Source: an uncultured Caryophanales bacterium (lineage in GTDB: Bacteria; Bacillota_I; Bacilli_A; RF39; UBA660). Taken from it: a DNA stretch of 46,512 bases. Below are positions 10,110 to 34,502 of the stretch, one piece after another. The notes beneath the pieces are model-generated. The model worked only from the letters and a program-made list of their open reading frames with translations, ran no database searches and was not told the DNA's origin. A program made the position numbers and the translations under genes. Each line of letters opens with the position of its first letter. Positions within the stretch are counted from its first letter, which is position 1. The stretch is from positions 1-46,512 of the forward strand of contig CAMOWA010000010.1 in NCBI GenBank assembly GCA_946628005.1, in the 5' to 3' direction.

Positions 10110-10126
10110 TTTAGGAAGTGAGAGTT

Positions 10127-16100: not shown

Positions 16101-18085
16101 CTAGTAGAATTGGTGAAAAAGGATATCGTTGGATTATTGGATTTGAAGCAATTAATTATGAGTTTACTTTAACTGCTTCTAGATATTCTTCTTTAGGAAC
16201 ATATGAATTACAAATGATTCATTTTGCTGAAGGAGATACTAAATTTACTGTATTAGGATTTGATAGTAGTGGTTTAAAATCTGGTTTAAGCTTTGTTGAT
16301 TCAACTAGTGTTCCAAGAGTTGGTCGAACAGAAGAGGAAGCTAATAATATATTAGGTTTATCTATGAAATCTGAAACTCAGGAGTGGACAGGTTATGGTA
16401 CTACAAAATTACTAAGTACTGGTGGAGGAGATTTTACTGGAGATTCAGATTATCGTACTGATAGTAGGAAACTTCCTCCTTCTCTTATGTTTTATTTATA
16501 TCATGCTAAAAATATAACTAGAGTAGGACCAATGGGAACTGTTGTTGTGACTCTTCAAGCTGCTGTTCCAAAAAACGCTATTGAAGATGATATAAAGTTT
16601 ATTACAATAACGATTCATTTAACTGCTGTTAATGTTGATTCTGATAGTTATGACGCTTCAATTACTTATGATAAGAGATATGAAATGCCTTCTTCAACTT
16701 CTGTTAATATTACTAATAAGAGTCAATTTAGTGCTTATTATTCTTTGACAGCATGGAAAGATAAATTTGAGTCTATTTATGGAAAAAATAATGATTATGT
16801 ACATGTTTTAGTTTCAAATCATGTTTTACCTGTTAATACAATGATTACTATGTTAGATTATGGAGCAAATCCTAATCGACCGGAGTATTATTATTTTAAA
16901 GTTACAGATAGTATTTATCAGGATTCTTTAAATCAACTTTCTCAGTATAATGAAGTTACTTATAGGTTAAGCAATTTTATTAAAATGGATAGTACTAGTA
17001 CGGATAATACGTATGATGATGCTTCTAATAATTTAATTTATTATGATTCTGAGGCTGGTTTAGTTGATGAAGAGTTTATGTTTATTTTTGATTTTAAGGA
17101 ATGTGAAGTGGAAGGGAATCATTTAAATAATACTATGTTATTTGAACTTCGTAATTCAGAAGAGCGTACTATTTATAGTGTTTTTGGTATTCGTGAAGGA
17201 TTAATGGTTTACAATACATTTGAAAGTAGTAATGTGGTTTTAAATCAACAATTTAATAATATGGATTCTTATTTATATTATAATATTCCTGATGAGTTTT
17301 CTTATTCTACTCAGATTCAATATAATGAAACTGAAAATAGGGAATCTGTAATTGATACGAATTATGAGTCTAGTAAAATGGGTTTGAATGTTGTTTTATT
17401 CAATCATGAAGGAGAACAGGTTAGTTCAAGTCTGTTGGTTGGTACAAGTATTTATATAGGTAATCAGGAGTATTTTGCTGATGGAGATGGTGTTTTTAGA
17501 ATTAAACTTGCTAATAAGGTGTCTAATTTGAATCGAGTAGCTAAAATAGTTGTTAATAAAGATTTACCTGCTGGAAGTTATACTATTCGTTATACTTTAT
17601 TTGCTTCTGATGATGGTCTTCATAATTCATCAGTTGAAAATTCTGTTACTCGTGAATTTCCTGTTGTTGTTGTAAGTGCTGACAATTCTATTATGGTAGA
17701 TTGTGATGATGGTGTAAAATTAGTTGATGGAGCTACCTCATTAAATTATAATGGAGTTGATACAAATAAGTATACTGTTAAGTATCATTCTCAATTATCC
17801 AATCCTAATTTTAGGATAGAAATATTTAAAAGAGATACAACTACAATAGATTCTACACAGTTTTCTTCTGTTAGCTTTCAATCTTTATTTCAGAATTCTC
17901 TTCCTATTGTAAGTGGAAATGAAGTTTCTATTTCAATGGGGAATGATACTGAAAAAGAGTTTGAATTTAAATTACAAGATTCATTAATTAGTGGTACTTA
18001 TCGTATTGCTTTTAAACTATATGATAATGATCAACTTATTGATGAAGAATATAAGTATGTAATTGTACAGAAAAAAATAGAATAA
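10127..18085 (+). CDS. Giant secreted beta-solenoid protein with YGGGN repeats, 2,652 aa
   Basis: The start is placed at ATG 10127, eight bases after AGGAAG; an in-frame GTG at 10118 overlaps that ribosome site. An N-terminal hydrophobic segment (about residues 9-32) directs export or anchors it. Residues 55-200 resemble GLUG-type modules (GNGTEDNPYVI, then FKGNFNGDGFSLLNF). From about residue 770 there is a parallel beta-helix-like region, and at about 970-1730 at least 25 turns contain Y/F-G-G-G/S-N, spaced 25-40 residues apart. The last 900 residues form several beta domains. No sortase motif or C-terminal membrane helix is visible, so the N-terminal segment is the only anchor seen. It is probably a long surface filament, adhesin or fibre scaffold. 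The region is T/G-rich and shows DNA-level repetition but no frameshift. Confidence 0.8.
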   Translation: MISLVKQKKIYTFFIIALFLTVFSFGLYSFITGVISFGELEDKWDGESVATSFHSGNGTEDNPYVINDASEFIYFQSLIEGEHYKDYQDKFYILGKDIDFNNHEITPIGKIIDEEERYFKGNFNGDGFSLLNFKITSSTVIDKISYYSLFSIIENSTIQNIGLRDFNISSSMNNDDLSYLSILIGKDYSTIDEKSILKNIFIDGFTIDTNLFTNKDNKINLLGIFDYSEITNLTIFGEVKSEFNYQLGDFSTNSSISNIVDGVLYSDKVDLKINNYYVYKDNKFYLNDEEISYDSILSNLNENYGIVYYWDYIDNDFIIKKYEERKKVDVPISSKSFSFSIRSVGAINLHDSGTEGTSIYVNDLDKDYNYYMGLNYASSSDGSLPTRDNKNLYSTSNLAKVYIHYDSRDYSDDSIYGTVSLTESYTDYYYYKYYPIIDGYVTFDLIDNPWANRPNGLAFNGWVTDYQGAVVSLDNSYYVRQVRIPASSFISIEFKTSWIPATIVNGNSFSGLNSAGMELYEPIVNVDYGDVSEYYVLRTQQAYTNYPTGRPIYNLNGNQINNRRCTNFFGCQYLIQSDSSVAEDGVSYYRLTFANGNYSYATSVEEVEPTITTTAPFDEGELVAGNFEQVIISNGSSIDGYYDEDGNILSGSCTRGPCTVYKYLQFYDELGNVNIVDLSKNYYYLVTRDTNIMVLTGNISGLTVSKPVTVTGINNGVDYGGSITISRSSIVLNSDCRIEQLYIDSSSYSSASLTTNSYYIGYNLIVANYHNLKIGRGIEVANNRKISGIFGGTALRNGPTYGSASNPYHYSLIVESGFYNNIYFSESFYGAGTMYLYGLCTLGNDLDRVSGNNDNLDVYYSFQGNAGSSLTMRGQNDIDRIYDIFVKSGKFGSSKSDLYTGIYVGGRGGNIYGNRAITIEGGYVYTIIGGLGSISSQQDLNSVYIYMKAGSVDAIFGGSGSAATYGNRIISVTGGTVNYSIFGGSNGSTINESSSDTGILYGDSYIYVGGNSIIGVESGTLFGANSGSVFGAGAGNDNKDGLGSVDNSNIVIGLDTTINGSVYGGGNYGSVGAQSTSSTSTTNIKVLGGTIKESIYGGGNNNGSGNSNSVTSTINIEFDGGTVNNSIYGGSRTNGTIYGTVNLSVNGGKVLKDVYGGGEGGYTSSSSSGTYVRDDVNVVINDGTIDGSVYGGSAFGTVNAVNENTSSSTHTTNVSVHGGVVKKNVFGGGKGDEDYTPKVVGDITVLVDGGNVGSVFGGFDASGKPSNGDVVYLNGGTIGNAYGGGNNANQDVTDIRLQGSTITENLYGGSNLLGTVTSSNVTVTSGSVKDVFGGNNMDGLTITSHVNINGSTITGNVYGGGNQADTTTTNVTINSGTLNDVYGGGYSAGVQDETNITILNGTMGNVFGGSNTLGDVGDTNITINSTNPSKSISAVYGGNNLGGTTSTSDIDITAGVIGNVYGGGNKVGLTTSDITAVGGKIDSIFGGSNQAGDVTTSNVVVGGDSSSVEVGSVYGGNNEGGVTDTTHVTIHSGTIQNVYGGGNEADVNSTTVIVNNGNIIDVYGGGNAASVLGSTSLDINGGIISNNVYGGGNEGIVSESTNVTITNANIQGNAFAGGNGSTAVVYKNSTITIDGTTIIGTDSSTAPDDGCVFGSGNAASTGLETENNSIATVNIVGGIIHGNVYGGPKMAVVYGTTETNIGSATVNNSSLNESDIHIYGTVFGGGESNASGSETYDWTFISVTEGINVHIDGTNYISHNHDFIINGSIFGSGNASSSSGTSNIYVKNLGSKELPNQAISIQRANYLEIDSSVMELAGTTDRTNEYSDILYSFNMIDKMVIKNGTTLLLKHNANMLKELYSGVDSGGELVPAVVDIDDENKTVTKNVDNRIYMIPGQNLNVTINQSATAYGKVTGMTFFGMYNSFEGGGYRYGLYDDSIQYGDSGNASLAIVGGSYVMGLRHENHDITKDGFYSNFLDEDTHDEITTAYIDPSRIGEKGYRWIIGFEAINYEFTLTASRYSSLGTYELQMIHFAEGDTKFTVLGFDSSGLKSGLSFVDSTSVPRVGRTEEEANNILGLSMKSETQEWTGYGTTKLLSTGGGDFTGDSDYRTDSRKLPPSLMFYLYHAKNITRVGPMGTVVVTLQAAVPKNAIEDDIKFITITIHLTAVNVDSDSYDASITYDKRYEMPSSTSVNITNKSQFSAYYSLTAWKDKFESIYGKNNDYVHVLVSNHVLPVNTMITMLDYGANPNRPEYYYFKVTDSIYQDSLNQLSQYNEVTYRLSNFIKMDSTSTDNTYDDASNNLIYYDSEAGLVDEEFMFIFDFKECEVEGNHLNNTMLFELRNSEERTIYSVFGIREGLMVYNTFESSNVVLNQQFNNMDSYLYYNIPDEFSYSTQIQYNETENRESVIDTNYESSKMGLNVVLFNHEGEQVSSSLLVGTSIYIGNQEYFADGDGVFRIKLANKVSNLNRVAKIVVNKDLPAGSYTIRYTLFASDDGLHNSSVENSVTREFPVVVVSADNSIMVDCDDGVKLVDGATSLNYNGVDTNKYTVKYHSQLSNPNFRIEIFKRDTTTIDSTQFSSVSFQSLFQNSLPIVSGNEVSISMGNDTEKEFEFKLQDSLISGTYRIAFKLYDNDQLIDEEYKYVIVQKKIE
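13045..15310 (+). repeat. Coding repeats: YGGGN solenoid turns
   Basis: This part of the giant gene encodes successive turns ending in motifs such as SVYGGGNYG, NVYGGGNQAD, DVYGGGYSAG, NVFGGSNTLG and AVYGGNNLGG. At the DNA level GTATATGGTGGTGGTAAT-like words recur every 75-120 bases. Copies have diverged, so this is an old protein repeat with some local homogenisation, not a fresh tandem duplication. The boundaries are approximate. Confidence 0.85.
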
Positions 18086-18135: not shown

Positions 18136-18768
18136 ATGAAGAATGTTTTAAGGTGGATTTGGTCAGTATTAGAGGTTTTTATTGTTATTTATGTTATTTT
18201 AATTACTTCTTTAATTTTGAATAAAAATAAATATGGTTATACTGAGTTTTTTGGATGTACTCTTCATAATGTTAATTTAATTGATGAGAATAATATTAAA
18301 AATGCTCATAAGGGAGAATTATTAGTCGTTAAAAAAAGTAATGATATTGAGGTTGGAGATTTAATATATTATTATGTTGCTTATAATGATAGTTATCTTA
18401 TTAGAAGTGATTATGTTACTAAGATTGTTCGTGATGATTTGAGTGCTTTGTATACGGTTCATAGAGGAAATGATGACTTTAGTATAGCAAGTGAAAGAGT
18501 TCTTGGAAAATATGCTAATTTGTATCCAACAATAGGTGGTATTTTAGAAGTTGTTGAAAGTCGAATTGGTTTCTTATTTTTAGTTTTACTTCCAATTATG
18601 ATTGTGTTTATCTATCAAGTATATGAGTTTATTGTTGTTTTACATTATGAAGATGTTACGGAAGATGATGATAGTGACAATGATAAAGATAACAAAAAAA
18701 CTACTAAGCTTGAGAAGACTAAAAGTGATAAATTTAAGTTTTCTGATAATGACGTTGAAATTTTGTAA
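18136..18768 (+). CDS. Signal-peptidase-like protein lacking catalytic residues, 210 aa
   Basis: The layout copies SipW: a first membrane helix (about 9-28), a beta domain of about 100 residues with the family segments GELLVVKKSNDIEVGDLIYYY and RVLGKYANLYPTIGG, and a second membrane helix (about 145-170) with a charged tail. However, the serine motif (TGSM in its neighbours) is replaced by FGCTLHNVN (residues 39-47) with no Ser, and the ITHR histidine motif is replaced by LIRSDYVTKI. The late HRGNDD keeps acidic residues. It should therefore be inactive as a peptidase by the known mechanism and may act as a regulator or substrate-holding partner. It lies 50 bases after the giant gene, with an AGGATGGTG ribosome site. 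Confidence 0.75.
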   Translation: MKNVLRWIWSVLEVFIVIYVILITSLILNKNKYGYTEFFGCTLHNVNLIDENNIKNAHKGELLVVKKSNDIEVGDLIYYYVAYNDSYLIRSDYVTKIVRDDLSALYTVHRGNDDFSIASERVLGKYANLYPTIGGILEVVESRIGFLFLVLLPIMIVFIYQVYEFIVVLHYEDVTEDDDSDNDKDNKKTTKLEKTKSDKFKFSDNDVEIL

Positions 18769-18797
18769 AAGGGTTATTTAAAATAACTCTTTTTTTT
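18769..18797 (+). terminator. Rho-independent terminator
   Basis: GGGTTATT pairs with AATAACTC (one G-U pair), followed by eight T, right after the stop of the pseudo-peptidase gene. It ends the 8694-18768 unit. Confidence 0.8.
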
Positions 18798-18805
18798 GTT
18801 ATAAT
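18798..18805 (+). promoter_or_regulatory. Extended -10 promoter for TasA-like gene trio
   Basis: TGTTATAAT (18797-18805) is a perfect extended -10 element, immediately after the terminator and about 20 bases before the next start codon. It would drive the three small surface-protein genes 18827-21003. Confidence 0.6.
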
Positions 18806-18826
18806 GAGTAAAGATAGGTGAGTTTA

Positions 18827-19435
18827 ATGAATAAGAAGATTGCTATTATGTTTTTATTATTAACAATTGGATGTTTTTTTTATTTAAGTTCTAAGAGTAC
18901 ATATACTTCTTATGAGTCTAATACTACTGGTAAGGTAAAAGCAAATACTGCAGGTATACACTTATCTATAAATGGGTTTAATGTAATGAATAGTGGAGGG
19001 GTATTGGATAATCGTATTATTTTGGAAAATACTACTTGGGAGTCTACTCACACACGTGAGAAAAAAATATCTCCTGGTTCTAGTGGAACAATTGATTTAG
19101 AAGTTGATCCTACTTCAAGTGATGTAGCAATTCTTTATGAGTTTCGATTTGTTGATAAAGTTATAGATGAAGAGAAACTATTAAATTTTGGAACTATTGT
19201 ATCTGATGATACATCATTTGTTAAAACAGGTGTAGATACTTATACAGGTGTGTTTACTTTAGATGATATTAATGATGGGAAAAAAACAAATATTCATGTT
19301 GATTTTTATTTTGATTATTTAAATGATATTGAAGGAATTACAGAAGATAATCAAGAATTTGATGATTTATTTGAGATTCATTTTCATGCTATACAATATA
19401 GAGGAGAAGAAATAGTACCATATTCTGGAGGATGA
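18827..19435 (+). CDS. TasA-like secreted protein, 202 aa
   Basis: The start is ATG 18827 after AGGTGAG; an in-frame GTG nine bases earlier overlaps the ribosome site. A short signal-type N-terminus (MNKKIAIMFLLLTIGCFFYL) is followed by SKSTYTSYESNTTGKVKANT, resembling the region after the cut in SipW substrates. The roughly 170-residue domain has the TasA/camelysin pattern: a first strand around GIHLSINGF, the turn motif KISPGSSGTIDLEVDPTSSD (compare xxPGxxGxxxLxVxN in the family), then paired strands (IHVDFYFDYL; FEIHFHAIQYR). It is probably a minor fibre subunit or anchor. Four bases separate it from the next gene. Confidence 0.7.
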   Translation: MNKKIAIMFLLLTIGCFFYLSSKSTYTSYESNTTGKVKANTAGIHLSINGFNVMNSGGVLDNRIILENTTWESTHTREKKISPGSSGTIDLEVDPTSSDVAILYEFRFVDKVIDEEKLLNFGTIVSDDTSFVKTGVDTYTGVFTLDDINDGKKTNIHVDFYFDYLNDIEGITEDNQEFDDLFEIHFHAIQYRGEEIVPYSGG

Positions 19436-19439
19436 TTTT

Positions 19440-20054
19440 ATGATAAATTCTTTTCGTGATAAAATCTTATCTATTCGATATTTTAAGGAAAAGACAAAAT
19501 TAATTCTATTTTTATTGGGTTTAATACTTATTTTGTTTTTTGCTCGTTATTTGTTTGGACTTGCTTATTCTAGGTATGAAGTTCGGGCAAAGATTAATGC
19601 TAACATAGATAAGGCTTTATATATTTTTGAAGATGAAAAGATAAGTTTTAATTTGGATCCTAATGGAATTATTCCTAGAGACGATCCATATACTTATAAA
19701 TTTAGTGTTTCTAATTTTAATGCTTCTAAAGAGAGTGATGTTGATATTTCTTATAAGGTATCTATTCGTACTACAACTAATTTACCAATACAGCTTAAAC
19801 TTTATCGTAATGAATTATATGACAGTGAAACTTCAGTTAATCTTTTAAATGGTAGTTCCGTTGTTCAAGATGAGGATAGTGCTTGGTATCGTGTTTATAA
19901 TGTCACTGATGAGTTTGAGTTTCTTTATACGTCTAAAAGTACAGATGTTTTTACTTTAGTTATTAATTTTCCTTCTGTTTATTCTGAAAACCCAATTTAT
20001 GCTGATTATATTGAAAATATTGAAGTTACTTTAGAGTCTAAACAAATAATATAA
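19440..20054 (+). CDS. TasA-like membrane-anchored protein, 204 aa
   Basis: A basic N-terminus and hydrophobic segment (about residues 20-43, LILFLLGLILILFFARYLFG) are followed by LAYSRYEVRAKINANIDKAL, matching the SxY...V.A.v.a.iA..l start of mature camelysin-like domains. Beta strands with SNFNASKESDVDISYKVSIR fit the family turn between strands. There is no clear cleavage motif. GGAGG is placed well before the ATG, overlapping the previous gene's end. It is the second gene of the 18827-21003 trio. I infer a structural surface subunit. Confidence 0.65.
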   Translation: MINSFRDKILSIRYFKEKTKLILFLLGLILILFFARYLFGLAYSRYEVRAKINANIDKALYIFEDEKISFNLDPNGIIPRDDPYTYKFSVSNFNASKESDVDISYKVSIRTTTNLPIQLKLYRNELYDSETSVNLLNGSSVVQDEDSAWYRVYNVTDEFEFLYTSKSTDVFTLVINFPSVYSENPIYADYIENIEVTLESKQII

Positions 20055-20070
20055 TATTGGAGGTAATATT

Positions 20071-21003
20071 TTGAAATATATACGTGAACATAAAAAAATT
20101 AGTATTTGTATCTTAATTGTTCTTATTATATTTTTAACAATTACTGTTACTTTTGGTAGATATATTAAAAATATTGTAAATAATTTTATTTTAGAAACAA
20201 AGGCTTTTTATTTTAATAGTAGTATATTGTCTATAAATGGTAAAAATTATTCTATTGTTAATTGGGATGGTGTTAACTCTTATAGTTTGAACATTGATTT
20301 AAATAATAGAAAAAATGATGAGAGATATACTAAAACGGATATTGTATATTCTATTAATGTTGATTGTCCAAATACTGTTCAATGCAGTTTAAATAAAAGT
20401 TCTGGTACGATTCATCCAGAGGATGAATCAGATAGTTATGTTATTACGGTTAGTCCAAAACAAAATTTTTATGAGGGGGATAGTGTTGTTGTAAAAACTG
20501 AAGTAGAATCTTCTTTACCATATCGTAAAAAGATGAGTGCATCTTATACTATTGGGGTTGAAAAAAGTGATTTTTCTTATGATATTGTGGATAGTGTAAA
20601 TTCTAAGTTTTTAACAATTAATTTTACTAATTCTATTACTTATTATCAAGTGAGTGAAGCTTTTGGTTCTTATTCTGTTGGAGATCAAATTGGTTTAGAT
20701 GATTATAGTTCTTTACAAGATAGTGAAAAAGATAAGTGCTTTTCAGCTATTATAACAGTTGAGTATGATCCAAATAAATTATTAGTTGATATGACTAACG
20801 ATTTATATTTGAATCGTTTAAGTACGAATTATCATGAAGAGATTATTAATGGATATTCTTATGTTTCTAAGTTTAGTTTTAAGGTACCTGCTAGTTCTAA
20901 TAGTTCTATTATTTTTTATAAAGACGATATTACTAAAAATTATACATATCCTATTGTAAATAATGATTCTATTATTGATGTTTCTGTTGTAAAAGCAAAT
21001 TAA
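20071..21003 (+). CDS. TasA-like/surface protein with TTG start, 310 aa
   Basis: A textbook GGAGGT lies nine bases before TTG at 20071, so TTG is the start. An N-terminal hydrophobic helix (about residues 10-28) is followed by TFGRYIKNIVNNFILETKAF, again matching the opening of TasA-like domains. Two beta-rich domains follow, the first ending near residue 165 with a DNA-encoded pair of cysteines (CPNTVQC) that could form a disulfide. The last third (SYVSKFSFKVPASSNSSIIFY) has no match I recognise. It closes the trio; the next gene has its own -10 box. Confidence 0.6.
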   Translation: MKYIREHKKISICILIVLIIFLTITVTFGRYIKNIVNNFILETKAFYFNSSILSINGKNYSIVNWDGVNSYSLNIDLNNRKNDERYTKTDIVYSINVDCPNTVQCSLNKSSGTIHPEDESDSYVITVSPKQNFYEGDSVVVKTEVESSLPYRKKMSASYTIGVEKSDFSYDIVDSVNSKFLTINFTNSITYYQVSEAFGSYSVGDQIGLDDYSSLQDSEKDKCFSAIITVEYDPNKLLVDMTNDLYLNRLSTNYHEEIINGYSYVSKFSFKVPASSNSSIIFYKDDITKNYTYPIVNNDSIIDVSVVKAN

Positions 21004-24776: not shown

Positions 24777-25400
24777 ATGTCTAAAATATTACATAATAAA
24801 TATTTTTCTATAATATATACTATTATTCGTGATATCTTCTTCTTTGTAGTTGTCTTATATTTAGCTTTTATTCTTATGCAGAGGATAAGTGGAAATAATA
24901 GTATTTTTGGATATCGTTTATTTACGGTTGCTACGGGATCAATGTCTGGAGTATATGAAATAAATGATGTGATTGCTGTAAAAGATTATGATGTTTTAAA
25001 GTTAAAAGTTGGAGATGATATTGCTTATCGTGGTTCACGTGGAGGATTAGAAGGAAAGCTTATTACTCATAGAATTATTCGTATTACAGAATCAGATCAT
25101 GGTAGAGTGTATGTTACTCGAGGAGTTAATGCTCCAGTAGAGGATCCTTCTATTGAAAGTTATCAAATACTTGGAAAAGTTATTGGAGTTGTACCAATTA
25201 TCACGACTTTAAATCATGTTATAAAAAGTCAATTAGGTTTTTTTGCACTTGTATTTTGTCCTTTAGTAATTGTTATAGTATTAGAAGTATTACAAACTAT
25301 TACTGATATAAGATTAGAAAAAGAAGAAATTAGAGAAATTAATCATAATGATATTGAAGAAAAAGAAATTAAAAAAAATAATGATATAGAAATTTTTTAG
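24777..25400 (+). CDS. SipW-type signal peptidase I, 207 aa
   Basis: This is a normal-length SipW-like enzyme: first membrane helix (about 17-36), catalytic motif FTVATGSMSGVYEINDVIAV (Ser55), histidine motif LITHRIIRI (His98), VYVTRGVNAPVEDP where the family has KGDxNxxxD (the first Asp is Val here, Asp123 kept), then GKVIGVVP and a second membrane helix (about 152-175). The charged tail faces the cytoplasm. AAGGAG precedes the ATG. It sits between the DUF2357 gene and a TasA-like gene that is probably its substrate, nine bases downstream. With the enzyme at 8694 it gives the locus two active-looking peptidases, suggesting separate substrate sets. Confidence 0.85.
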   Translation: MSKILHNKYFSIIYTIIRDIFFFVVVLYLAFILMQRISGNNSIFGYRLFTVATGSMSGVYEINDVIAVKDYDVLKLKVGDDIAYRGSRGGLEGKLITHRIIRITESDHGRVYVTRGVNAPVEDPSIESYQILGKVIGVVPIITTLNHVIKSQLGFFALVFCPLVIVIVLEVLQTITDIRLEKEEIREINHNDIEEKEIKKNNDIEIF

Positions 25401-25408
25401 GAGAGGCT

Positions 25409-26164
25409 ATGAAAAAGCAAATAGATAGAGAAAAAATTCGTCTTTTGAATAAAAAACTTAAAAAGCAAAAATATATTAGTCTTCTTTTAGCACTTTTTAC
25501 TTTTGGTGTTAATATTTTTGCGTGGTTTGCTTTTTCTGCAAATGCTGGTTTAGGTATTGATGCTACTGTTGCAGCATGGGATGTTGAGTTTAAAGATAAT
25601 GGTGAAATATCTAGAAATATGTTTATTGAAGTCGCTAAAATGAAACCTGGGATGAGTGATTTTATAAGAACAATAGAAGTAAATAATAAAAGTGATGTAG
25701 TTGCTAAATTTTCTTATGAGTTTGTTTCAATGTCTTTACTTGGTCATGTAATTAATATATCTAGTATTGATGATATGAATGAATATTTATCTAGTTTTTA
25801 TCCGTTTTCTGTTCATTTTACTCCTTCTAGTGATGAAATTGCTGCTAATGGTTCTATTACTTTTGATGTTCGTGTTACTTGGCCTTTTGAAGATGTTGAT
25901 GGAACTACTACTTATTATAAACAAAATGATGTTTATGATTATAATGATACTTTCTTGTATTATACTAAAACTGGTGAGAGATATGACTTATTTAATGTAG
26001 CATCTTCAAGTGTATATAATTCAAATAAAAGTAGTTTATATTTAGAAAAAGATGATGCTGATACGTATTTTGGTATGGCTTGTCATCATTATGAAGAAGA
26101 GTCTGGGCAACCTTGTCTTACAATGAATTTGCGTTTACTTGTTGAACAAAAGATTGATGCATAA
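25409..26164 (+). CDS. SipW-dependent TasA-like protein, 251 aa
   Basis: A very basic N-terminus (residues 1-22) and hydrophobic core lead to NIFAWFAFSANAGLGIDATV (about 35-54), a SipW-type cleavage region with the AWF signature. The mature part starts with strands around AAWDVEFKDNGEIS and has the family turn VAKMKPGMSDFIRTIEVNN. The end contains two cysteines (MACHHYEEESGQPCLTMNL) in the place where the first two fibre genes have their WIEGxDxxC motif. GGAGAGG precedes the ATG. It is the last intact gene of the surface-fibre locus; the following DNA is a broken, unrelated gene. Confidence 0.75.
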   Translation: MKKQIDREKIRLLNKKLKKQKYISLLLALFTFGVNIFAWFAFSANAGLGIDATVAAWDVEFKDNGEISRNMFIEVAKMKPGMSDFIRTIEVNNKSDVVAKFSYEFVSMSLLGHVINISSIDDMNEYLSSFYPFSVHFTPSSDEIAANGSITFDVRVTWPFEDVDGTTTYYKQNDVYDYNDTFLYYTKTGERYDLFNVASSSVYNSNKSSLYLEKDDADTYFGMACHHYEEESGQPCLTMNLRLLVEQKIDA

Positions 26165-26190
26165 GGGTAAGATTGAGTTTTTTAGTTTAA

Positions 26191-26697
26191 TTGAGAGGAT
26201 TATCTGAAAATCATTTTGCTGGTACAATACTAGCCAATTGTATATCTTTTGAAGGAAATAGTGAAGCACATTTTTATTCATTACAACTTGATAATTTGCC
26301 ATATATTTCAAGTCTTGATTATCATAATGTAGATTATAAATTAGATGAAAGTAGGGGAACTATAAGTTATAGTGAGTGACTAAATCCACAAGAATTACAA
26401 GAAGGCATGGTCGTAAAGTTCAAAGTTAATACCAAACTAGGTTACCAAGTATCTAATATTATAATAAAAGATGAAGAAGGAAATATAATAGAATATAGAA
26501 AAGTATCAGATAATGAATATGAATTTACCATGCCAGCAACTAATGTAATGATAAATCCAACATTTGAAAAAAAGGAAGTAATTGATTTGATAACGAATCC
26601 AGAAACAGCGTTGAAAATATCTATTTTTCTAATAGCAATTATTTCTTTAGGAACAGGAATATATGTATATCAAAAGAAAGAATCTAAAAAAATATAG
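26191..26697 (+). pseudogene. Choice-of-anchor-A surface protein, C-terminal remnant
   Basis: The plus strand encodes, in one frame, HFAGTILANCISFEGNSEAH (with GLSEN before it), then a TGA at 26377-26379, then LNPQELQEGMVVKFKV on to NEYEFTMPATNVMINPTFEK and a C-terminal membrane helix. Each part aligns with the end of the intact gene 29469-30911 (YAGAFLVNSLYLEGNSEAHY; LEEGMVVSFRV; NEYEFTMPATNVTITPKF). The N-terminal 300 residues are gone, a stop (TAA 26188-26190) lies directly upstream, and there is no start or ribosome site. So it is a degraded paralogue, cut near 26165 and further broken by the TGA. Confidence 0.85.
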
Positions 26698-26772: not shown

Positions 26773-29421
26773 ATGAAAAATATTAAGAAATATATGTATT
26801 ATTTTTCACTTATTACTACCATTATCTATATTCTATTTAGAATATTTTGTACTTTACCAAGAGTATTTGATGTATCTTTGTTATTTGCGCTTATTGTACT
26901 ATTAGTAGAAATAATTGATTCTGTTTTTTTTGCTATATATACTCTTAATATATTAGTAAAAGAATCTAAAATACCAATCATTTCAAAAGTACTAAAAAAA
27001 GATTATCCTGAACTAGATGTTTTTATTGCAACTATTAATGAAGAAACAAAACTTGTTGAAGAAACAATAAAAGCATGTAAGGAAATGAAATATCCTGATA
27101 AAAGAAAGATACATATATATTTATGTGATGATGGAAGAAGAAAAGAAATGGAAGATCTTTGTAAAAAAATGAAAATTAATTACATTGATCGTAAAAATAA
27201 TAAGAATGCTAAAGCAGGTAATTACAATAATGCATTAAAAAAGACAAAATCTCCATATATAGTGGTATTTGATGCAGATATGAAACCTACAAAAGATTTT
27301 TTAATGAAAACTATACCTTATTTATTCTGTGATGAAAAAATTGGTTTTGTACAATTACCTCAAAGTTTTTCAAATGAAGACATATATCAAAAAAGATTTA
27401 AGTTATGGAATTATATTCCTTTTGAGCAAGACTATTTTTATCATAGAATCCAGTTATCAAAAAATAATAATAACTCTGTAATTTTTTGTGGAACAAATGC
27501 TATCCTCTCAAGAAAGGCATTAGAAGATATTGGCGGTTTTGCTACTGAAACTATTACAGAAGATTTTGCAACAGGTTTATTGATGGAAAGAAAAGGCTAT
27601 AAAGGGATTGCTTTACCATATGATGAAGCTTATGGAAAAAATGTTGAAAGTATATCTTCCTTAATAAAACAGCGAATAAGATGGTGTAGAGGATGTATTC
27701 AAACATATAAAAACTATAAAATTCTTCATAATAGTGGTTTGAACTTTATTCAAAAAACTGATTATTTGTCTGGAATATATTATTGGTTTTTTGGTATACG
27801 AAATACTATTTTTTTGCTTGTACCATTGTTGTTTGCATATTTTAATATTAGAATTATTCAAGGAAATGCTATATTATTTATTATTTTCTTTTTAATACAA
27901 TATATATTAAAAAGATTTGTAATTGATAAATTAGAAAATAATAAAGTGTCTTCAACTTGGAATAGAATATATGAAGTAATTTTATCTCCAATTATTTTTA
28001 TTGAATCTTTATTAGAAATAATAGGTATAAGAAAGAAAAAATTTGAAGTAACTTTAAAAAAGAATAGTAACCATAAATCAATTAAGTATTATTATTTAGT
28101 TTTATCTCATTCGTTCTTATTTATACTTAATATAACTGGTTTATATATTTCTATAGAAAAAACACTAATATATGATTATATAGAATTTATAATCCCAATA
28201 TTTTGGTTAAGTACAAATTGTATTTATTTATTATTTGCTTTAATTTTTGATTTTAGTAATAGTGAAAGTATTAATGAAATTGAAAATAATAGAAATACTT
28301 ATTCATTATCTTCTACGTTTATTCTGATTTATAAGTTTATTAAAGAAGAGATTAAAGTAAAAAGATTAGCTATTATTTCTTTTATAATATTTATATTTTG
28401 TTTTGGATTAATAATAAATAATTATTATCAATATAGAAAAAGTATAATAATAAATCCAGAGTCTTTAGTTTCTTATAATGGAAAATTATCGATTGATAAT
28501 GGAATTATTGTGAACGAAAAGAAAGAGATAGTAAAACTAAAAGGAATAAGTTCGCATAATTTATATTGGTATAAAAGAATTTATACAAAAGAAAATTTAA
28601 AAGAAATTAGAGATACATGGGGAATAAATACTTTTAGAATTGCATTATATACCAATCCAGAAGAAGATGGCTATATAATTAATAAAGAGCAAATAAAAGA
28701 GGTTGAAAGGATAATTGATTATTGTATTGATTTAGATATTTATGTAATAGTAGATTGGCATATTCTGAAGGATAATAATCCAAACATATATAAAGAAGAG
28801 GCAATAGATTTCTTTAATAAAATATCAAAAAAATATAAAGATAGTCCAAATGTTATTTATGAAATATGTAATGAGCCAAATGGAGAAGAAGTAACTTGGA
28901 ATGAAGATATAAAACCATATGCAGAAGAGGTTATTGGAGTAATAAGAAAGAATAGTAAAAATTCTTTAATAATTGTTGGTTTAGCTGATTGGTGTAAAGA
29001 TATTAATTCTGCTAAAAACAATTTATTAGAAGATAAAAATATAATCTATTCTGTTCATTTCTATGCGGGAGCTCAGAATATTCAATTAAAAGAAGAAATA
29101 TCTTCTGCAGTAAAAGAAAAGATGCCATTAATTGTTACAGAATGTGGAGCAACTAATGAATCAGGAGACGGTAAACTATATAAAAAAGAATTTATAAACT
29201 GGATAGAATATCTAGAAAATAATAATATTAGTTGGATAGTTTGGCAGTTATCAGAAAAAGAAGAATCATCTTCCCTAGTAATAAAAAAGGAAGTACAAGA
29301 TAGGCTGGATTTTTTATATGAAAAGTATACAGAAAAAGAATTAAAACGAAAGAAATATCATATTAATGATTATCTTTCTGATACTGGTAAATTTATGAAA
29401 GAAATATTTATAAAACATTGA
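26773..29421 (+). CDS. Cellulose-synthase-like GT2 fused to GH5 endoglucanase, 882 aa
   Basis: Two N-terminal membrane helices (about 10-62) lead to a BcsA-type GT2 domain: LDVFIATINEE, CDDG (118-121), FDADMK (166-171), ITEDF (261-265, catalytic Asp) and KQRIRWCRG (299-307, the QxxRW acceptor motif). Several membrane helices follow (about 320-480 and 535-555). I see no PilZ domain, so c-di-GMP control is not evident. From about 580 there is an extracellular GH5 cellulase domain: LKGISSHNLYW, DIYVIVDWHI, YEICNEPNG (acid/base Glu701), HFYAG and IVTECGA (nucleophile Glu790), IVWQLSEK. BcsA and its glucanase are normally separate proteins; here synthesis, export and trimming are joined. The product is probably a beta-glucan such as cellulose. 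It leads a set with two surface proteins. Confidence 0.85.
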   Translation: MKNIKKYMYYFSLITTIIYILFRIFCTLPRVFDVSLLFALIVLLVEIIDSVFFAIYTLNILVKESKIPIISKVLKKDYPELDVFIATINEETKLVEETIKACKEMKYPDKRKIHIYLCDDGRRKEMEDLCKKMKINYIDRKNNKNAKAGNYNNALKKTKSPYIVVFDADMKPTKDFLMKTIPYLFCDEKIGFVQLPQSFSNEDIYQKRFKLWNYIPFEQDYFYHRIQLSKNNNNSVIFCGTNAILSRKALEDIGGFATETITEDFATGLLMERKGYKGIALPYDEAYGKNVESISSLIKQRIRWCRGCIQTYKNYKILHNSGLNFIQKTDYLSGIYYWFFGIRNTIFLLVPLLFAYFNIRIIQGNAILFIIFFLIQYILKRFVIDKLENNKVSSTWNRIYEVILSPIIFIESLLEIIGIRKKKFEVTLKKNSNHKSIKYYYLVLSHSFLFILNITGLYISIEKTLIYDYIEFIIPIFWLSTNCIYLLFALIFDFSNSESINEIENNRNTYSLSSTFILIYKFIKEEIKVKRLAIISFIIFIFCFGLIINNYYQYRKSIIINPESLVSYNGKLSIDNGIIVNEKKEIVKLKGISSHNLYWYKRIYTKENLKEIRDTWGINTFRIALYTNPEEDGYIINKEQIKEVERIIDYCIDLDIYVIVDWHILKDNNPNIYKEEAIDFFNKISKKYKDSPNVIYEICNEPNGEEVTWNEDIKPYAEEVIGVIRKNSKNSLIIVGLADWCKDINSAKNNLLEDKNIIYSVHFYAGAQNIQLKEEISSAVKEKMPLIVTECGATNESGDGKLYKKEFINWIEYLENNNISWIVWQLSEKEESSSLVIKKEVQDRLDFLYEKYTEKELKRKKYHINDYLSDTGKFMKEIFIKH

Positions 29422-29468: not shown

Positions 29469-30911
29469 ATGAAAAAGAATAAAATAATAATAATATTTTT
29501 ATTAATAGTATCATTATCATTTATTACAGTTAATGTTTATGCTGATGATTATTCAGATGATATTTATGATGGGGATTATTCAATTGAAGATATGTTAAAT
29601 AACTATAATGTTATTACATTTGGAAAAAAAGATTTAGATAGTCATATGACTCAAAACAACTTTTCAAAGGGAGATGCTAAATTATTTCATATTAATTCAC
29701 AATTCTTAATAAATGGAACTCTTAGATTAACTCGTGGGACATTTTTCTATTATTATCTTGGCAATCGACTTGATGAAGGACGACTAGATCTTAACAGGTC
29801 AGTTGATAATCTAAATTCGTCATTTCTTTATATTGATTTTCCTAAGGCATATTCCCCTTCACCAGCATCAAGAATATATTCAATAAATGGAGGAGAAATA
29901 GAGTTGAATTATGTTATTGCATCAGAATACAATTATCCTAAAGTTTCTCTTAATAATTCTTTATATATGAATTTTAATCGACTATATGATTCTATAATAG
30001 CTGAACAAAATAAAATAAAAAAGGGTAGAAATGTAACTTCAGAAGATGGAATGGTCCACGTTGAAACTGGTGGAGAATACTATATTGATGATATAAATAA
30101 TATAAATGAAATTGTATTTGATAATTTTGAAGATAATAAAGATGATTTAACAATTATCACAATTAATAATACAGGAAGTATTACATTTCCTAAAATTTAT
30201 AACTCTACAAGCAATGGAGAAAATAGTTTAATTCCAACTAACGATTTCCTTGGTATGAATAGACCAGGGAGTGATTATGAGAGATACTATGTTACTGAAA
30301 AATATTATGGAAACATTATTTGGAATGTACCAAATGCAACTTATATAGAATTACCATCAGCTCCTTTTATTGGACACTTAGTTGCTCCAAAAGCTGATGT
30401 TTATGGACCAGAACTTCATTATGCAGGAGCATTCTTAGTAAATAGTTTATATTTAGAAGGTAATAGTGAAGCACATTACTATCCATTAACTAATACTAAT
30501 ATTCCATATAGAAGTAATCCAGAACCAGTAAAAGCAATATTTAATATAAAAAGAAATCAAGGAAATATCAAATTTAATAATAATATAAATAATGAGAATT
30601 TAGAAGAAGGAATGGTAGTATCCTTTAGAGTAGAAGTAGAAAATGATTATTTATTCTCTGGAATTGAAATAAAAGATGAAGATGGAAATATTATTGAATT
30701 TAAAAAAGTAGGAGATAATGAATATGAATTCACAATGCCAGCAACCAATGTTACAATTACTCCAAAATTTGTGGAAAGAAATATAAAAAACACAATTGAG
30801 CAAATTATCACTAATCCAAAGACTAAAAATAATTTCTTTATTCTTTTAGGAATTATAATTGTTAGTTTTATTGTTGGATATAAGAAAATAAAAAAAGAAA
30901 ATAAAATTTAA
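29469..30911 (+). CDS. Choice-of-anchor-A surface protein with InlB-B-like repeat, 480 aa
   Basis: A clear signal peptide ends near residue 25 (SFITVNVYA). The long central domain has the family end-motif APKADVYGPELHYAGAFLVN, then SLYLEGNSEAHYYPL, typical of choice-of-anchor-A (collagen-binding-like) domains that sit on surfaces. A divergent InlB B-repeat follows (GMVVSFRVEVENDYLFSGIE to EYEFTMPATNVTITPKF), then a membrane helix (about 453-470) and a basic tail, so the protein is anchored at the C-terminus by membrane insertion rather than sortase. GGAGAG precedes the ATG. Its position just after the glucan synthase suggests it binds or organises the polymer at the surface; that is inference. 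A broken paralogue lies at 26191. Confidence 0.8.
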   Translation: MKKNKIIIIFLLIVSLSFITVNVYADDYSDDIYDGDYSIEDMLNNYNVITFGKKDLDSHMTQNNFSKGDAKLFHINSQFLINGTLRLTRGTFFYYYLGNRLDEGRLDLNRSVDNLNSSFLYIDFPKAYSPSPASRIYSINGGEIELNYVIASEYNYPKVSLNNSLYMNFNRLYDSIIAEQNKIKKGRNVTSEDGMVHVETGGEYYIDDINNINEIVFDNFEDNKDDLTIITINNTGSITFPKIYNSTSNGENSLIPTNDFLGMNRPGSDYERYYVTEKYYGNIIWNVPNATYIELPSAPFIGHLVAPKADVYGPELHYAGAFLVNSLYLEGNSEAHYYPLTNTNIPYRSNPEPVKAIFNIKRNQGNIKFNNNINNENLEEGMVVSFRVEVENDYLFSGIEIKDEDGNIIEFKKVGDNEYEFTMPATNVTITPKFVERNIKNTIEQIITNPKTKNNFFILLGIIIVSFIVGYKKIKKENKI

Positions 30912-30962: not shown

Positions 30963-33900
30963 ATGAAAAATATTATTATAATTACTTTATGTATATTTTT
31001 ATTTATATTATTTATTCCTTTTGTGGTAAATGCAGAAAATTGTAGAACAAATAGTATTAAAATAAAATCTATCTCTATGAAGAATAAATCAAAGAACACA
31101 GAAGAATTATCTAAAGTAACAATAGAAAATAATAAAATTAATTTGAACCTTAAAATGTATGATGTAGGAGATTTTATTGAATATAAATTAGTTTTAGATA
31201 ATATAACTGATGAGGTATATTATTTTGATAAAGATTCTTTTAATATTGATTCAAATTATTTTGATTATGAAATTATTTATAGAGATGATTCTCGTAGAAT
31301 AGAACCAAATAGTAAAAATATAGTATATTTAAGAATAGTATATAAGAAGGAAGTAGAAAATCCAAAATTTTTAAGTGGCATATATTTAGATAAAAAAAAT
31401 ATATCTTTCAATTTGTCTAATTTAAATCCAATTTTTGTTAATCCATTAACTATGAACAATAAATTATTATTATTTATAATTCTATTTGTAGTTTTTTTTA
31501 CAATTATTTATTTAAATAAAAATGATAAATTAAAATATAGTATAATAATGTTATTAATAGTTTTTTTACCTATTCAAGTTTTTGCTATATGTAGAACTAA
31601 AATTGAGATTAATTCTAATATAATGATTGGTAAAGTTACTCCTAATCCTTGTATATATGATGGTGAGTTAGTTCAAGGAGCAGAATATACTAATGGGCAA
31701 TATACTTATAGATATATGCAAGAAGGATATAGTGATGAATGGAAAGATATAGATAATGATGGATGGGGAGTAGTATTAACAAATAAAGATTCAACAGAAG
31801 ATGTTACAACTAAGTTATGTACTAGTATTAATAAAAAAGCTATTGTTTCTATGTCTAGTATGTTTTATGGTAGTAAAACCTCGAAAATTGATTTAAGTAG
31901 TTTTGATACAAGTAATGTTGTAAATATGTCAGGTATGTTTAATTCTTGTACTAATATAAATAAATTAAATTTATCGAATTTTGATACTTCAAAAGTTTTG
32001 TATATGTTTACAATGTTTTATAGTGCAACTTCATTAGAAGAAGTAAACTTAGATGGATTTGATTTAACTTCTTCAACAAGTGGAAGCAATATACTTGGAG
32101 GCATGTTTTCTGGTGCTAATAATTTAAAGCGCGTTTCTATGAAAAACTGGAAAATACCAGAAACATTTACTAATGCAATAGGATGTAGAACATCATCGCT
32201 ATGTTCTGAAAGCTTAGAATATATTGATGTAACAGATTGGGATTTAAGTAAAACAAAAAATTTAAATGGGTTATTTGGAAACCTATATGCGAAAGAAATT
32301 AAGGGATTAGAAACATGGGATACACAAAATATTGCACATATGGGAAACATGTTTGGAGCTGCAAAAAATTTAAAAAGTTTAAATTTAAGTAGTTTTAACA
32401 CTTCAAAAGTTACAAATATGTCGTCAATGTTTTCCGATGCAACTTCGTTAGAAGAAGTAAAATTAGATGGATTTGATTTAACATCTTCAACAAGTGGAAG
32501 CAATATACTTGGAGGCATGTTTTCTGGTGCTAATAATATAAAGCGCGTTTCTATGAAAAAATGGAAAATACCAGAAACATTTTTTAATGCAATAGGATGT
32601 AGAACATCATCGTTATGTTCTGAAAACTTAGAATATATTGATGTAAAAGATTGGAATTTAAGTAAAACAAAAAATTTAAATGGGTTATTTGGAAACCTAA
32701 ATGCGAAAGAAATTAAGGGATTAGAAACATGGGATACACAAAATATTGCACATATGGGAAACATGTTTGGAGCTGCAAAAAATTTAAAAAGTTTAAATTT
32801 AAGTAGTTTTAACACTTCAAAAGTTACAAATATGTCGTCAATGTTTTCCGATGCAACTTCGTTAGAAGAAGTAAAATTAGATGGATTTGATTTAACATCT
32901 TCAACAAGTGGAAGCAGTATACTTGGAGACATGTTTTTTGGTGCTAATAATTTAAAGCGCGTTTCTATGAAAAAATGGAAAATACCAGAAGCATTTACTA
33001 ATGCAATAGGATGTAGAGCATCATCGTTATGTTCTGAAAGCTTAGAATATATTGATGTAACAGATTGGGATTTAAGTAAAACAAAAAATTTAAATGGGTT
33101 ATTTGGAAACCTATATGCGAAAGAAATTAAGGGATTAGAAACATGGGATACACAAAATATTACAGATATGGGAATTATGTTTGGAACTGCAAAAAATTTA
33201 AAAAGTTTAAATTTAAGTAGCTTTGATACTTCAAATGTAACTAATATGTCGGCAATGTTTTTTGGTGCTGAGAGTATAAAAGAGTTAGATTTAAGTAATT
33301 TTAATACAAAAAAAGTAACTAGTTTTGGTGGAATGTTTAGTGGATGTACTAATTTAAAAAAATTAAATCTAAGTAATATAGATGCTAATAATGCATCTTA
33401 TACAAGTAGCGTTTTTGAAGGAGTTCCGAGTTTAGATGAATTAGATATGAGTAATTGGGATTTTAGAAGGCATGATTTAAAAGGTAATGGTCCAATTATT
33501 AATAGAGTATTAGGTGATGGAGTTTATAATATAAAAAAATTAAAAGTAGATAATTCTATATTTGGTAGTGATATGACTTATGCGTTTGGAGGACTAAGTA
33601 ATTTAGAAGATTTATCATTAAAAAACGTAGATACAACAAATGTAACTAATATGTATGTAATGTTTTCTGGTTTATCTAAAATAAAGTCATTGGATTTAAG
33701 TAGCTTTGATACTTCAAATGTAACTAATATGTCGTCAATGTTTTCTGGTGCTAAGAGTATAAAAGAGTTAGATTTAAGTAGCTTTGATACTTCAAATGTA
33801 ACTAATATGTCGTCAATGTTTTCTGGTGCTGAGAGTATAAAAGAGTTAGATTTAAGTAATTTTAATACAAAAAAAGTAACTAGTTTTGGTGGAATGTTTA

Positions 33901-34502
33901 GTGGATGTACTAATTTAAAAAAATTAAATCTAAGTAATATAGATGCTAATAATGCATCTTATACAAGTAGCGTTTTTGGAGGAGTTCCGAGTTTAGATGA
34001 ATTAGATATGAGTAATTGGGATTTTAGAAGGTATGATTTAAAAGGTAATGGTTCAATTGTTAATAGAGTATTAGGTGATGGAGCTTATAATATAAAAAAG
34101 ATAAAAGTAGATAATTCTTTATTTGGTAGTGATTTGACTTATGCGTTTGGAGGACTAAGTGAATTAGAAGATTTATCATTAAAAAACGTAGATACAACAA
34201 ATGTAACTGATATGTCTGTAATGTTTTCTGGTTTATCTAAAATAAAGTCATTGGATTTAAGTAGCTTTGATACTTCAAATGTAACTGATATGTCGTCAAT
34301 GTTTTCTAATTGTTCAAGTTTAAAAACAATTTTAGTTAGTGATAAGTTTAAGGTAAAACAAGTTGTTATTTCTCATTCAATGTTTTATAATTCACCTTTA
34401 TTAGTTGGAGGCAATGGTACAACATATAATGCTAATCATACTGATAAAGAATATGCTAGGATAGATACTCCTGGAGCTTTAGGATATTTTACTAGGAAGT
34501 AA
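30963..34502 (+). CDS. BspA-like (DUF285) repeat surface protein, 1,179 aa
   Basis: A signal peptide (about 1-24, ending PFVVNAENC) is followed by a beta domain of about 145 residues, a membrane helix (about 168-190, KLLLFIILFVVFFTIIYL) and then a second signal-like segment (KYSIIMLLIVFLPIQVFAIC). From about residue 235 to the end the protein consists of DUF285 repeats of the form LDLSSFDTSNVTNMSSMFSG, spaced about 23 residues, as in BspA-like leucine-rich adhesins. The front looks like a complete small membrane-anchored protein fused to a secreted repeat protein. The repeats include three near-identical 138-residue blocks and two 187-residue-spaced blocks at DNA level. It ends with ALGYFTRK, without a sortase signal. 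Likely adhesion to host or community partners. Confidence 0.85.
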   Translation: MKNIIIITLCIFLFILFIPFVVNAENCRTNSIKIKSISMKNKSKNTEELSKVTIENNKINLNLKMYDVGDFIEYKLVLDNITDEVYYFDKDSFNIDSNYFDYEIIYRDDSRRIEPNSKNIVYLRIVYKKEVENPKFLSGIYLDKKNISFNLSNLNPIFVNPLTMNNKLLLFIILFVVFFTIIYLNKNDKLKYSIIMLLIVFLPIQVFAICRTKIEINSNIMIGKVTPNPCIYDGELVQGAEYTNGQYTYRYMQEGYSDEWKDIDNDGWGVVLTNKDSTEDVTTKLCTSINKKAIVSMSSMFYGSKTSKIDLSSFDTSNVVNMSGMFNSCTNINKLNLSNFDTSKVLYMFTMFYSATSLEEVNLDGFDLTSSTSGSNILGGMFSGANNLKRVSMKNWKIPETFTNAIGCRTSSLCSESLEYIDVTDWDLSKTKNLNGLFGNLYAKEIKGLETWDTQNIAHMGNMFGAAKNLKSLNLSSFNTSKVTNMSSMFSDATSLEEVKLDGFDLTSSTSGSNILGGMFSGANNIKRVSMKKWKIPETFFNAIGCRTSSLCSENLEYIDVKDWNLSKTKNLNGLFGNLNAKEIKGLETWDTQNIAHMGNMFGAAKNLKSLNLSSFNTSKVTNMSSMFSDATSLEEVKLDGFDLTSSTSGSSILGDMFFGANNLKRVSMKKWKIPEAFTNAIGCRASSLCSESLEYIDVTDWDLSKTKNLNGLFGNLYAKEIKGLETWDTQNITDMGIMFGTAKNLKSLNLSSFDTSNVTNMSAMFFGAESIKELDLSNFNTKKVTSFGGMFSGCTNLKKLNLSNIDANNASYTSSVFEGVPSLDELDMSNWDFRRHDLKGNGPIINRVLGDGVYNIKKLKVDNSIFGSDMTYAFGGLSNLEDLSLKNVDTTNVTNMYVMFSGLSKIKSLDLSSFDTSNVTNMSSMFSGAKSIKELDLSSFDTSNVTNMSSMFSGAESIKELDLSNFNTKKVTSFGGMFSGCTNLKKLNLSNIDANNASYTSSVFGGVPSLDELDMSNWDFRRYDLKGNGSIVNRVLGDGAYNIKKIKVDNSLFGSDLTYAFGGLSELEDLSLKNVDTTNVTDMSVMFSGLSKIKSLDLSSFDTSNVTDMSSMFSNCSSLKTILVSDKFKVKQVVISHSMFYNSPLLVGGNGTTYNANHTDKEYARIDTPGALGYFTRK
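32037..33266 (+). repeat. Three tandem 414-bp coding repeats
   Basis: The word GAAGAAGTAA recurs at 32037, 32451 and 32865, exactly 414 bases (138 codons) apart, with long stretches nearly identical between copies. The third copy is diverged near its end. In-frame length and high identity imply recent duplication that can expand or contract by recombination. Confidence 0.9.
33220..34300 (+). repeat. Two direct coding repeats spaced 561 bp
   Basis: A block starting near GATACTTCAAATGTAACTAA and including GCTGAGAGTATAAAAGAG is found at 33267 and again 561 bases (187 codons) later, nearly identical for about 500 bases. It is a second independent duplication in the same gene. The boundaries are approximate. 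Confidence 0.85.

Follow-up and report, generated by a model that had tools for sequence, protein, structure and literature searches.

We identified a protein of 882 residues from an uncultured gut Caryophanales bacterium that joins a cellulose-synthase-like GT2 glycosyltransferase to a GH5 endoglucanase domain in one chain. Its gene lies in a 46,512-nt stretch of contig CAMOWA010000010.1 (assembly GCA_946628005.1), referred to here as the window. On the strength of sequence comparison and structure modelling, the protein is quite probably a self-contained membrane beta-glucan synthase with its own endoglucanase, arisen once by gene joining; its product and activity are predictions. The initial annotation had read the GT2 motifs and both GH5 glutamates as intact in one frame with membrane helices between the domains, and the open reading frame, Pfam matches and alignment bear out the former, AlphaFold2 helices and hydropathy the latter. 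The novelty lies in a bacterial GT2-GH5 fusion and in the PilZ-less lineage to which it belongs, whereas synthase-hydrolase fusion as a type is known from tunicate CesA-GH6. Our literature search, mainly of non-subscription papers, found no description of either the bacterial fusion or the lineage, and an earlier description is possible. The main features of the locus are as follows.

26180..26697, + strand: truncated pAdhesive_15-type remnant upstream of the fusion (96-aa ORF at 26407-26697 resembling the gene at 29469; in-frame TGA by sequence reading)
26773..29421, + strand: GT2-TM-GH5 fusion gene, 882 aa (single open frame, Pfam, homologous fusions)
27007..27693, + strand: GT2 catalytic domain, aa 79-307, with DDG, DAD, TED and QRIRW (PF13641; BcsA-like by sequence and fold; conserved residues)
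27790..28254, + strand: membrane channel region, TM helices 3-6, aa 340-494 (AlphaFold2 helices, hydropathy)
28042..28059, + strand: gating-loop motif FEVTLK (FxVTxK), aa 424-429 (conservation across 21 sequences)
28309..28443, + strand: helix aa 513-557 with the extra TM segment, TM7 (hydropathy, AlphaFold2, junction comparison)
28468..29418, + strand: GH5 (GH5_2-like) endoglucanase domain, aa 566-882 (PF00150; Cel5A E=7e-88, Z 46.7)
28873..28875, + strand: predicted GH5 acid/base E701 in NEP (conserved 20/20; role taken from the Cel5A family)
29140..29142, + strand: predicted GH5 nucleophile E790 in TECG (conserved 20/20; role taken from the Cel5A family)
29469..30911, + strand: pAdhesive_15/choice-of-anchor A surface protein, 480 aa, a conserved neighbour (domain matches, locus comparison)
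30963..34502, + strand: BspA-like LRR (DUF285/PARCEL) surface protein, 1179 aa (domain matches, locus comparison)

The fusion gene begins with ATG, preceded about 9 nt upstream by GGAG on reading the sequence; a promoter and terminator scan gave matches no more frequent than in shuffled sequence. Pfam assigns residues 83-254 to PF00535, 79-307 to PF13641 and 580-829 to the Cellulase/GH5 family PF00150 (E=4e-58). When fused and unfused relatives are aligned, 21/21 GT2 rows keep the catalytic and gating residues of that domain, with F424, V426, T or S at 427, and K429 in the gating loop, and all 20 GH5 rows keep H663, N700, E701, H762, Y764, E790 and W824. The nucleophile context in this lineage is TECG, TECA or TETA as opposed to SEWG in Cel5A, and the kinetics may therefore differ from those of Cel5A.

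Modelling of the whole chain had been suggested in the initial annotation, and an AlphaFold2 model from an alignment of 34 sequences (mean pLDDT 88.9, pTM 0.62) resolves into a BcsA-like and a Cel5A-like part. The first, residues 1-551, overlays BcsA (Z 37.6, 517 aligned, rmsd 3.2), and the second, residues 562-882, overlays Cel5A (1a3h; Z 46.7, 295 aligned, rmsd 1.0). Helices are modelled at 3-27, 34-61, 340-357, 366-387, 437-467 and 469-494, followed by a long helix at 513-557 with a further TM segment. In the predicted topology, six crossings would keep the GT2 domain and the gating loop on the cytoplasmic side and a seventh would take GH5 to the outer face, in agreement with the earlier proposal that the fusion places the glucanase at the molecule's own exit. 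The linker is poorly defined at 548-559 (pLDDT <50), and how far the GH5 cleft lies from the pore is inferred from a model (pTM 0.62) that leaves the GH5 position relative to the pore unfixed.

The closest solved GT2 relatives are the BcsA proteins of E. coli (7lby/9fmz) and C. sphaeroides (4hg6/4p00), with which the fusion shares the D, D, TED, QxxRW and FxVTxK motifs, the TM channel architecture and the fold. It differs from BcsA in lacking PilZ, in its extra TM7 and predicted extracytoplasmic GH5, and in the two N-terminal TM helices that lie ahead of GT2. Against the CelA equivalog model NCBIfam TIGR03030 it falls below the cut-off (361 bits against 699), matching profile positions 60-561 of 714. 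On the GH5 side, the nearest relatives are Bacillus agaradhaerens Cel5A and its kin, which are GH5_2-type (1h11 E=7e-88), an assignment that reflects nearness to GH5_2 reference enzymes and not a formal CAZy subfamily model. The Cel5A/EglS endoglucanases (1a3h, 3pzt) are about 45% identical to the GH5 domain and match its fold at rmsd 1.0 over 295 residues, yet they stand alone, whereas this GH5 is tethered to a synthase. Clostridioides CcsZ (6uje) gives a far weaker match (E=2.6e-14 versus 7e-88 for Cel5A), and we rejected a CcsZ relationship.

Among described systems, the clostridial Ccs operon is similar in pairing a Gram-positive GT2 with a nearby-encoded GH5 beta-glucanase; however, its CcsA and CcsZ are separate proteins, CcsA has PilZ, CcsZ belongs to GH5_25, and the operon includes the partners CcsB, MBOAT CcsH and DHHW CcsI (PMC7710045). 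None of these three partners was found among the 15 other window ORFs scanned, immediate neighbours included. RiGT2 of Romboutsia ilealis is likewise a Gram-positive GT2 beta-glucan synthase and works without added c-di-GMP; unlike the fusion, it needs its PilZ domain for activity, has no fused hydrolase described and makes a mixed-linkage glucan (PMC10374906). Tunicate CesA does combine a synthase and a glycoside hydrolase in one chain, but it is an animal protein whose GH6 has lost the catalytic Asp, whereas the fusion GH5 retains both Glu residues (PMC7464555). Because the hydrolase families differ (GH6 versus GH5), the tunicate fusion is an independent event. The earlier statement that synthase and glucanase are separate in known systems thus holds for the bacterial systems described, for example BcsZ of GH8 (PMC5070118) and CcsZ of GH5_25 (PMC7710045), but not for tunicate CesA. 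The accompanying claim that the glucanase is needed for proper export went too far, since Salmonella makes less cellulose under the action of BcsZ, and in Komagataeibacter the GH8 enzyme promotes cellulose output (PMC5070118). Whether glucanases beside bacterial cellulose synthases lower output, raise it or help export is still argued.

The fusion is a real gene. A second fused copy, 52% identical, lies on another contig of the window's genome, and fusions at 51-82% identity occur in 4/35 further genomes of the genus. Together the five genomes hold seven fused copies, with a pair in both the window's genome and G024. All frames are open. For GT2, pairwise dN/dS lies between 0.03 and 0.35, and for GH5 between 0.09 and 0.29, values that are rough for the more distant pairs, whose synonymous sites are near saturation; the linker is looser. 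Purifying selection acts on both catalytic domains. Every carrier genome in the genus is a draft, the titled ones are MAGs, and the window's genome is scored as 8% contaminated, which would favour a chimeric assembly or a misread frame joining two genes. The seven open copies in five genomes and the purifying selection across both domains rule this out, leaving it a negligible chance, and the stop or frameshift that the initial annotation had named as a refutation is absent from the uninterrupted frame. A third GT2 match in the window's genome (L003) is 28% identical.

We also searched for the same domain order elsewhere, as had been proposed. A scan of 84,980 species genomes returned 206 relatives, of which the best 80 loci were examined, and further sampled searches covered the order, the phylum, the Saccharibacteria class and the Fibrobacter family. 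Four arrangements emerged. Within this coverage, the GT2-TM-GH5 fusion was found only in the window's genus, in the four further genomes noted above. In the second arrangement, a PilZ-less GT2 (~535 aa) adjoins a separate signal-anchored GH5 (~345 aa). These pairs are the nearest relatives of the fusion. They occur mostly in gut Candidatus Saccharibacteria, with over a dozen loci carrying the label of that group (including L028, L030-L036, L038, L039 and L075, where the synthase is cellulose-type), in one unlabelled MAG (L062), in another genus of the window's family (L029, from the same genome as L098), and in MAGs assigned by binning to Lachnospira (L025) and Clostridia (L040). On the 190-kb contig of L028 and the 138-kb contig of L030 the pair is collinear among what by eye are chromosomal housekeeping genes, which speaks against stray contigs. 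A close GT2 was present in only 3/294 sampled Saccharibacteria-class genomes; the pair is therefore uncommon in that class. The third arrangement, GH5-TM-GT2-PilZ-like (~1050 aa), belongs to rumen Fibrobacter (L066-L069, L072, L074, L087; 21/101 sampled family genomes), with a diverged relative in one MAG labelled Clostridiales (L097). The fourth is a Ccs-like GT2-PilZ protein in Clostridium, Paenibacillus and Lachnospiraceae, several loci of which have a separate, more distant GH5 nearby.

The unfused pairs point to how the fusion was made. In most Saccharibacteria loci the stop codon of GT2 and the start codon of GH5 share an ATGA, and in a few loci a TAATG. When the pairs are aligned with the fusion, the GT2 cytosolic tail leads straight into the N-terminal anchor of the unfused GH5, to which the TM7 helix corresponds. 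In this alignment, the fusion junction is the stop/start overlap point of the two genes. In the GH5 and GT2 trees, both built without RiGT2, the fusions form one clade (100/98 and 99) inside the lineage of unfused pairs. Synteny, junctions and trees together support a single origin of the fusion in the window's genus, by joining of adjacent genes for a PilZ-less synthase and a signal-anchored GH5. An AU test of whether the unfused pairs form one clade gave p=0.11. In both trees the sequences from Saccharibacteria branch within those from Bacillota, a pattern that suggests transfer into Saccharibacteria.

Both trees separate the Fibrobacter proteins from this lineage, and the hypothesis that the two kinds of fusion share one origin was rejected (AU p=0.0002). 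Their model comprises a signal helix, a GH5 barrel, a TM segment at 348-377, helices at 404-430 and 438-466, GT2 and further TMs, with a beta-barrel at ~925-1002. Pfam calls no PilZ in the C-terminus, while a profile match (hhalign 97%) supports a PilZ-derived domain there. Like the window's protein, the Fibrobacter fusion combines synthase and GH5 in one chain with GH5 predicted outside; unlike it, the order is reversed, the putatively PilZ-derived C-terminal domain is retained and the origin is independent. The fusion was made twice, in opposite orders, yet in both cases GH5 is predicted to lie outside and the catalytic residues are intact; this strongly supports the view that the glucanase would act at the exit of its own synthase. 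The single polypeptide would allow a test of this view by one point mutation.

The absence of PilZ noted in the initial annotation holds for both protein and genome: Pfam gives no PilZ match in the fusion protein, a search of the window's genome found none either, and the segment that separates TM6 from the following helix in the AlphaFold2 model, aa 495-512, is too short for one. The corollary that regulation must differ from the c-di-GMP type was too strong. Sinorhizobium BgsA is without PilZ but binds c-di-GMP through a C-terminal peptide, and RiGT2 has a PilZ domain that showed no detectable c-di-GMP binding (PMC10374906). Moreover, the window's genome has two GGDEF matches (contigs C23, 4134-4565, and C16, 28566-28946). 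That a PilZ-less lineage exists and extends to Saccharibacteria suggests that beta-glucan may be exported there without gating by PilZ; in the literature found, mainly non-subscription papers, Saccharibacteria had no record of such polymers and no link to a cellulose synthase.

The genes around the synthase point to a cell-surface role, because adhesin-like and LRR neighbours are conserved. A pAdhesive_15/choice-of-anchor A gene adjoins the synthase also in L018, L019, L020, L021 and L029, and a fragment upstream of L002 looks pAdhesive_15-like by eye. Of 11 Saccharibacteria loci whose upstream sequence is long enough, 7 have a large BspA-like LRR gene directly upstream of the synthase; in L020 and L029 such a gene lies no more than a few kb away, and in the window it is the second gene downstream. 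The genomes G344 and G345 have about two LRR_5 genes each, one of which adjoins the synthase in each case. Such adjacency is no demonstration of a physical link.

GT2 domains of the BcsA type make polymers from UDP-sugars and extrude the chain, and GH5_2 enzymes cut beta-1,4-glucans. From the conserved motifs and fold, the GT2 domain would build a glucose chain from UDP-glucose in the cytoplasm and pass it through its own membrane channel. TM7 would carry the polypeptide outside and hold the Cel5A-type GH5 near the channel exit at a fixed 1:1 ratio, where it may cut the emerging chain, thereby setting its length, releasing it or relieving tangles. Activity would probably be set by expression or substrate supply, and not by direct PilZ gating, since a PilZ domain is absent and there is no room for one. 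The glucan would probably form part of a surface layer with the adjacent adhesin-like and LRR proteins. A UDP-glucose supply in the genus is weakly supported, the galU-like matches there lying below the curated cut-off. A broader reading takes the gut Saccharibacteria and gut Bacillota proteins as a novel PilZ-less synthase lineage in which the tethered GH5 processes the exiting chain and couples the glucan to the adjacent adhesin-like/LRR proteins, giving small-genome bacteria an attachment coat that is not PilZ-gated; as a whole, we regard this as rather doubtful.

The product could be cellulose or a mixed-linkage glucan. The same machine might make a (1,3;1,4)-beta-glucan edited by its GH5, and some GH5 cellulases do cut mixed-linkage glucans. 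RiGT2, a Gram-positive GT2 of the same broad family, makes such a polymer; its authors state that structure alone cannot tell the two products apart (PMC10374906). The closest solved synthases, however, are cellulose synthases, the closest hydrolases are beta-1,4-endoglucanases, and RiGT2 has a PilZ domain whereas the window's lineage has none. We therefore view a mixed-linkage product as possible, if on the unlikely side.

Two further proposals concern what the hydrolase is for. It might serve mainly as a transglycosylase that grafts or anchors glucan onto the pAdhesive_15 or BspA-like LRR neighbours, as the conservation of these surface proteins would allow, and PMC5070118 cites a GH5 cellulase that has transglucosylase activity. 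Yet no residue or domain supports this role, adjacency is not contact, and the LRR neighbour is missing in 4/11 Saccharibacteria loci, making this very improbable. Or GH5 might be a nutritional cellulase merely anchored via the synthase, with incidental action on the synthase's own product, in keeping with hosts that inhabit plant-fed guts and with stand-alone anchored GH5_2 genes in other genera of the same family that have no adjoining synthase. The conserved synthase adjacency, the stop/start overlap, the congruent trees and the independent Fibrobacter fusion all argue against it, and we consider it very improbable. A synthase with a dedicated, tethered endoglucanase remains our preferred reading.

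Several minor observations were made as well. The stand-alone membrane-anchored GH5_2-like genes of the other genera are L099-L106. In the window, the BspA-like LRR protein at 30963-34502 contains long internal near-repeats, and a 2655-aa ORF without a Pfam match occupies 10118-18085 (+). Upstream of the fusion, at 24777-26164 (+), a SipW-like signal peptidase is followed by a secreted protein that has no Pfam match and is TasA/camelysin-like by eye, and several small secreted proteins are encoded at 18136-21003, beside these SipW-like and TasA-like genes.
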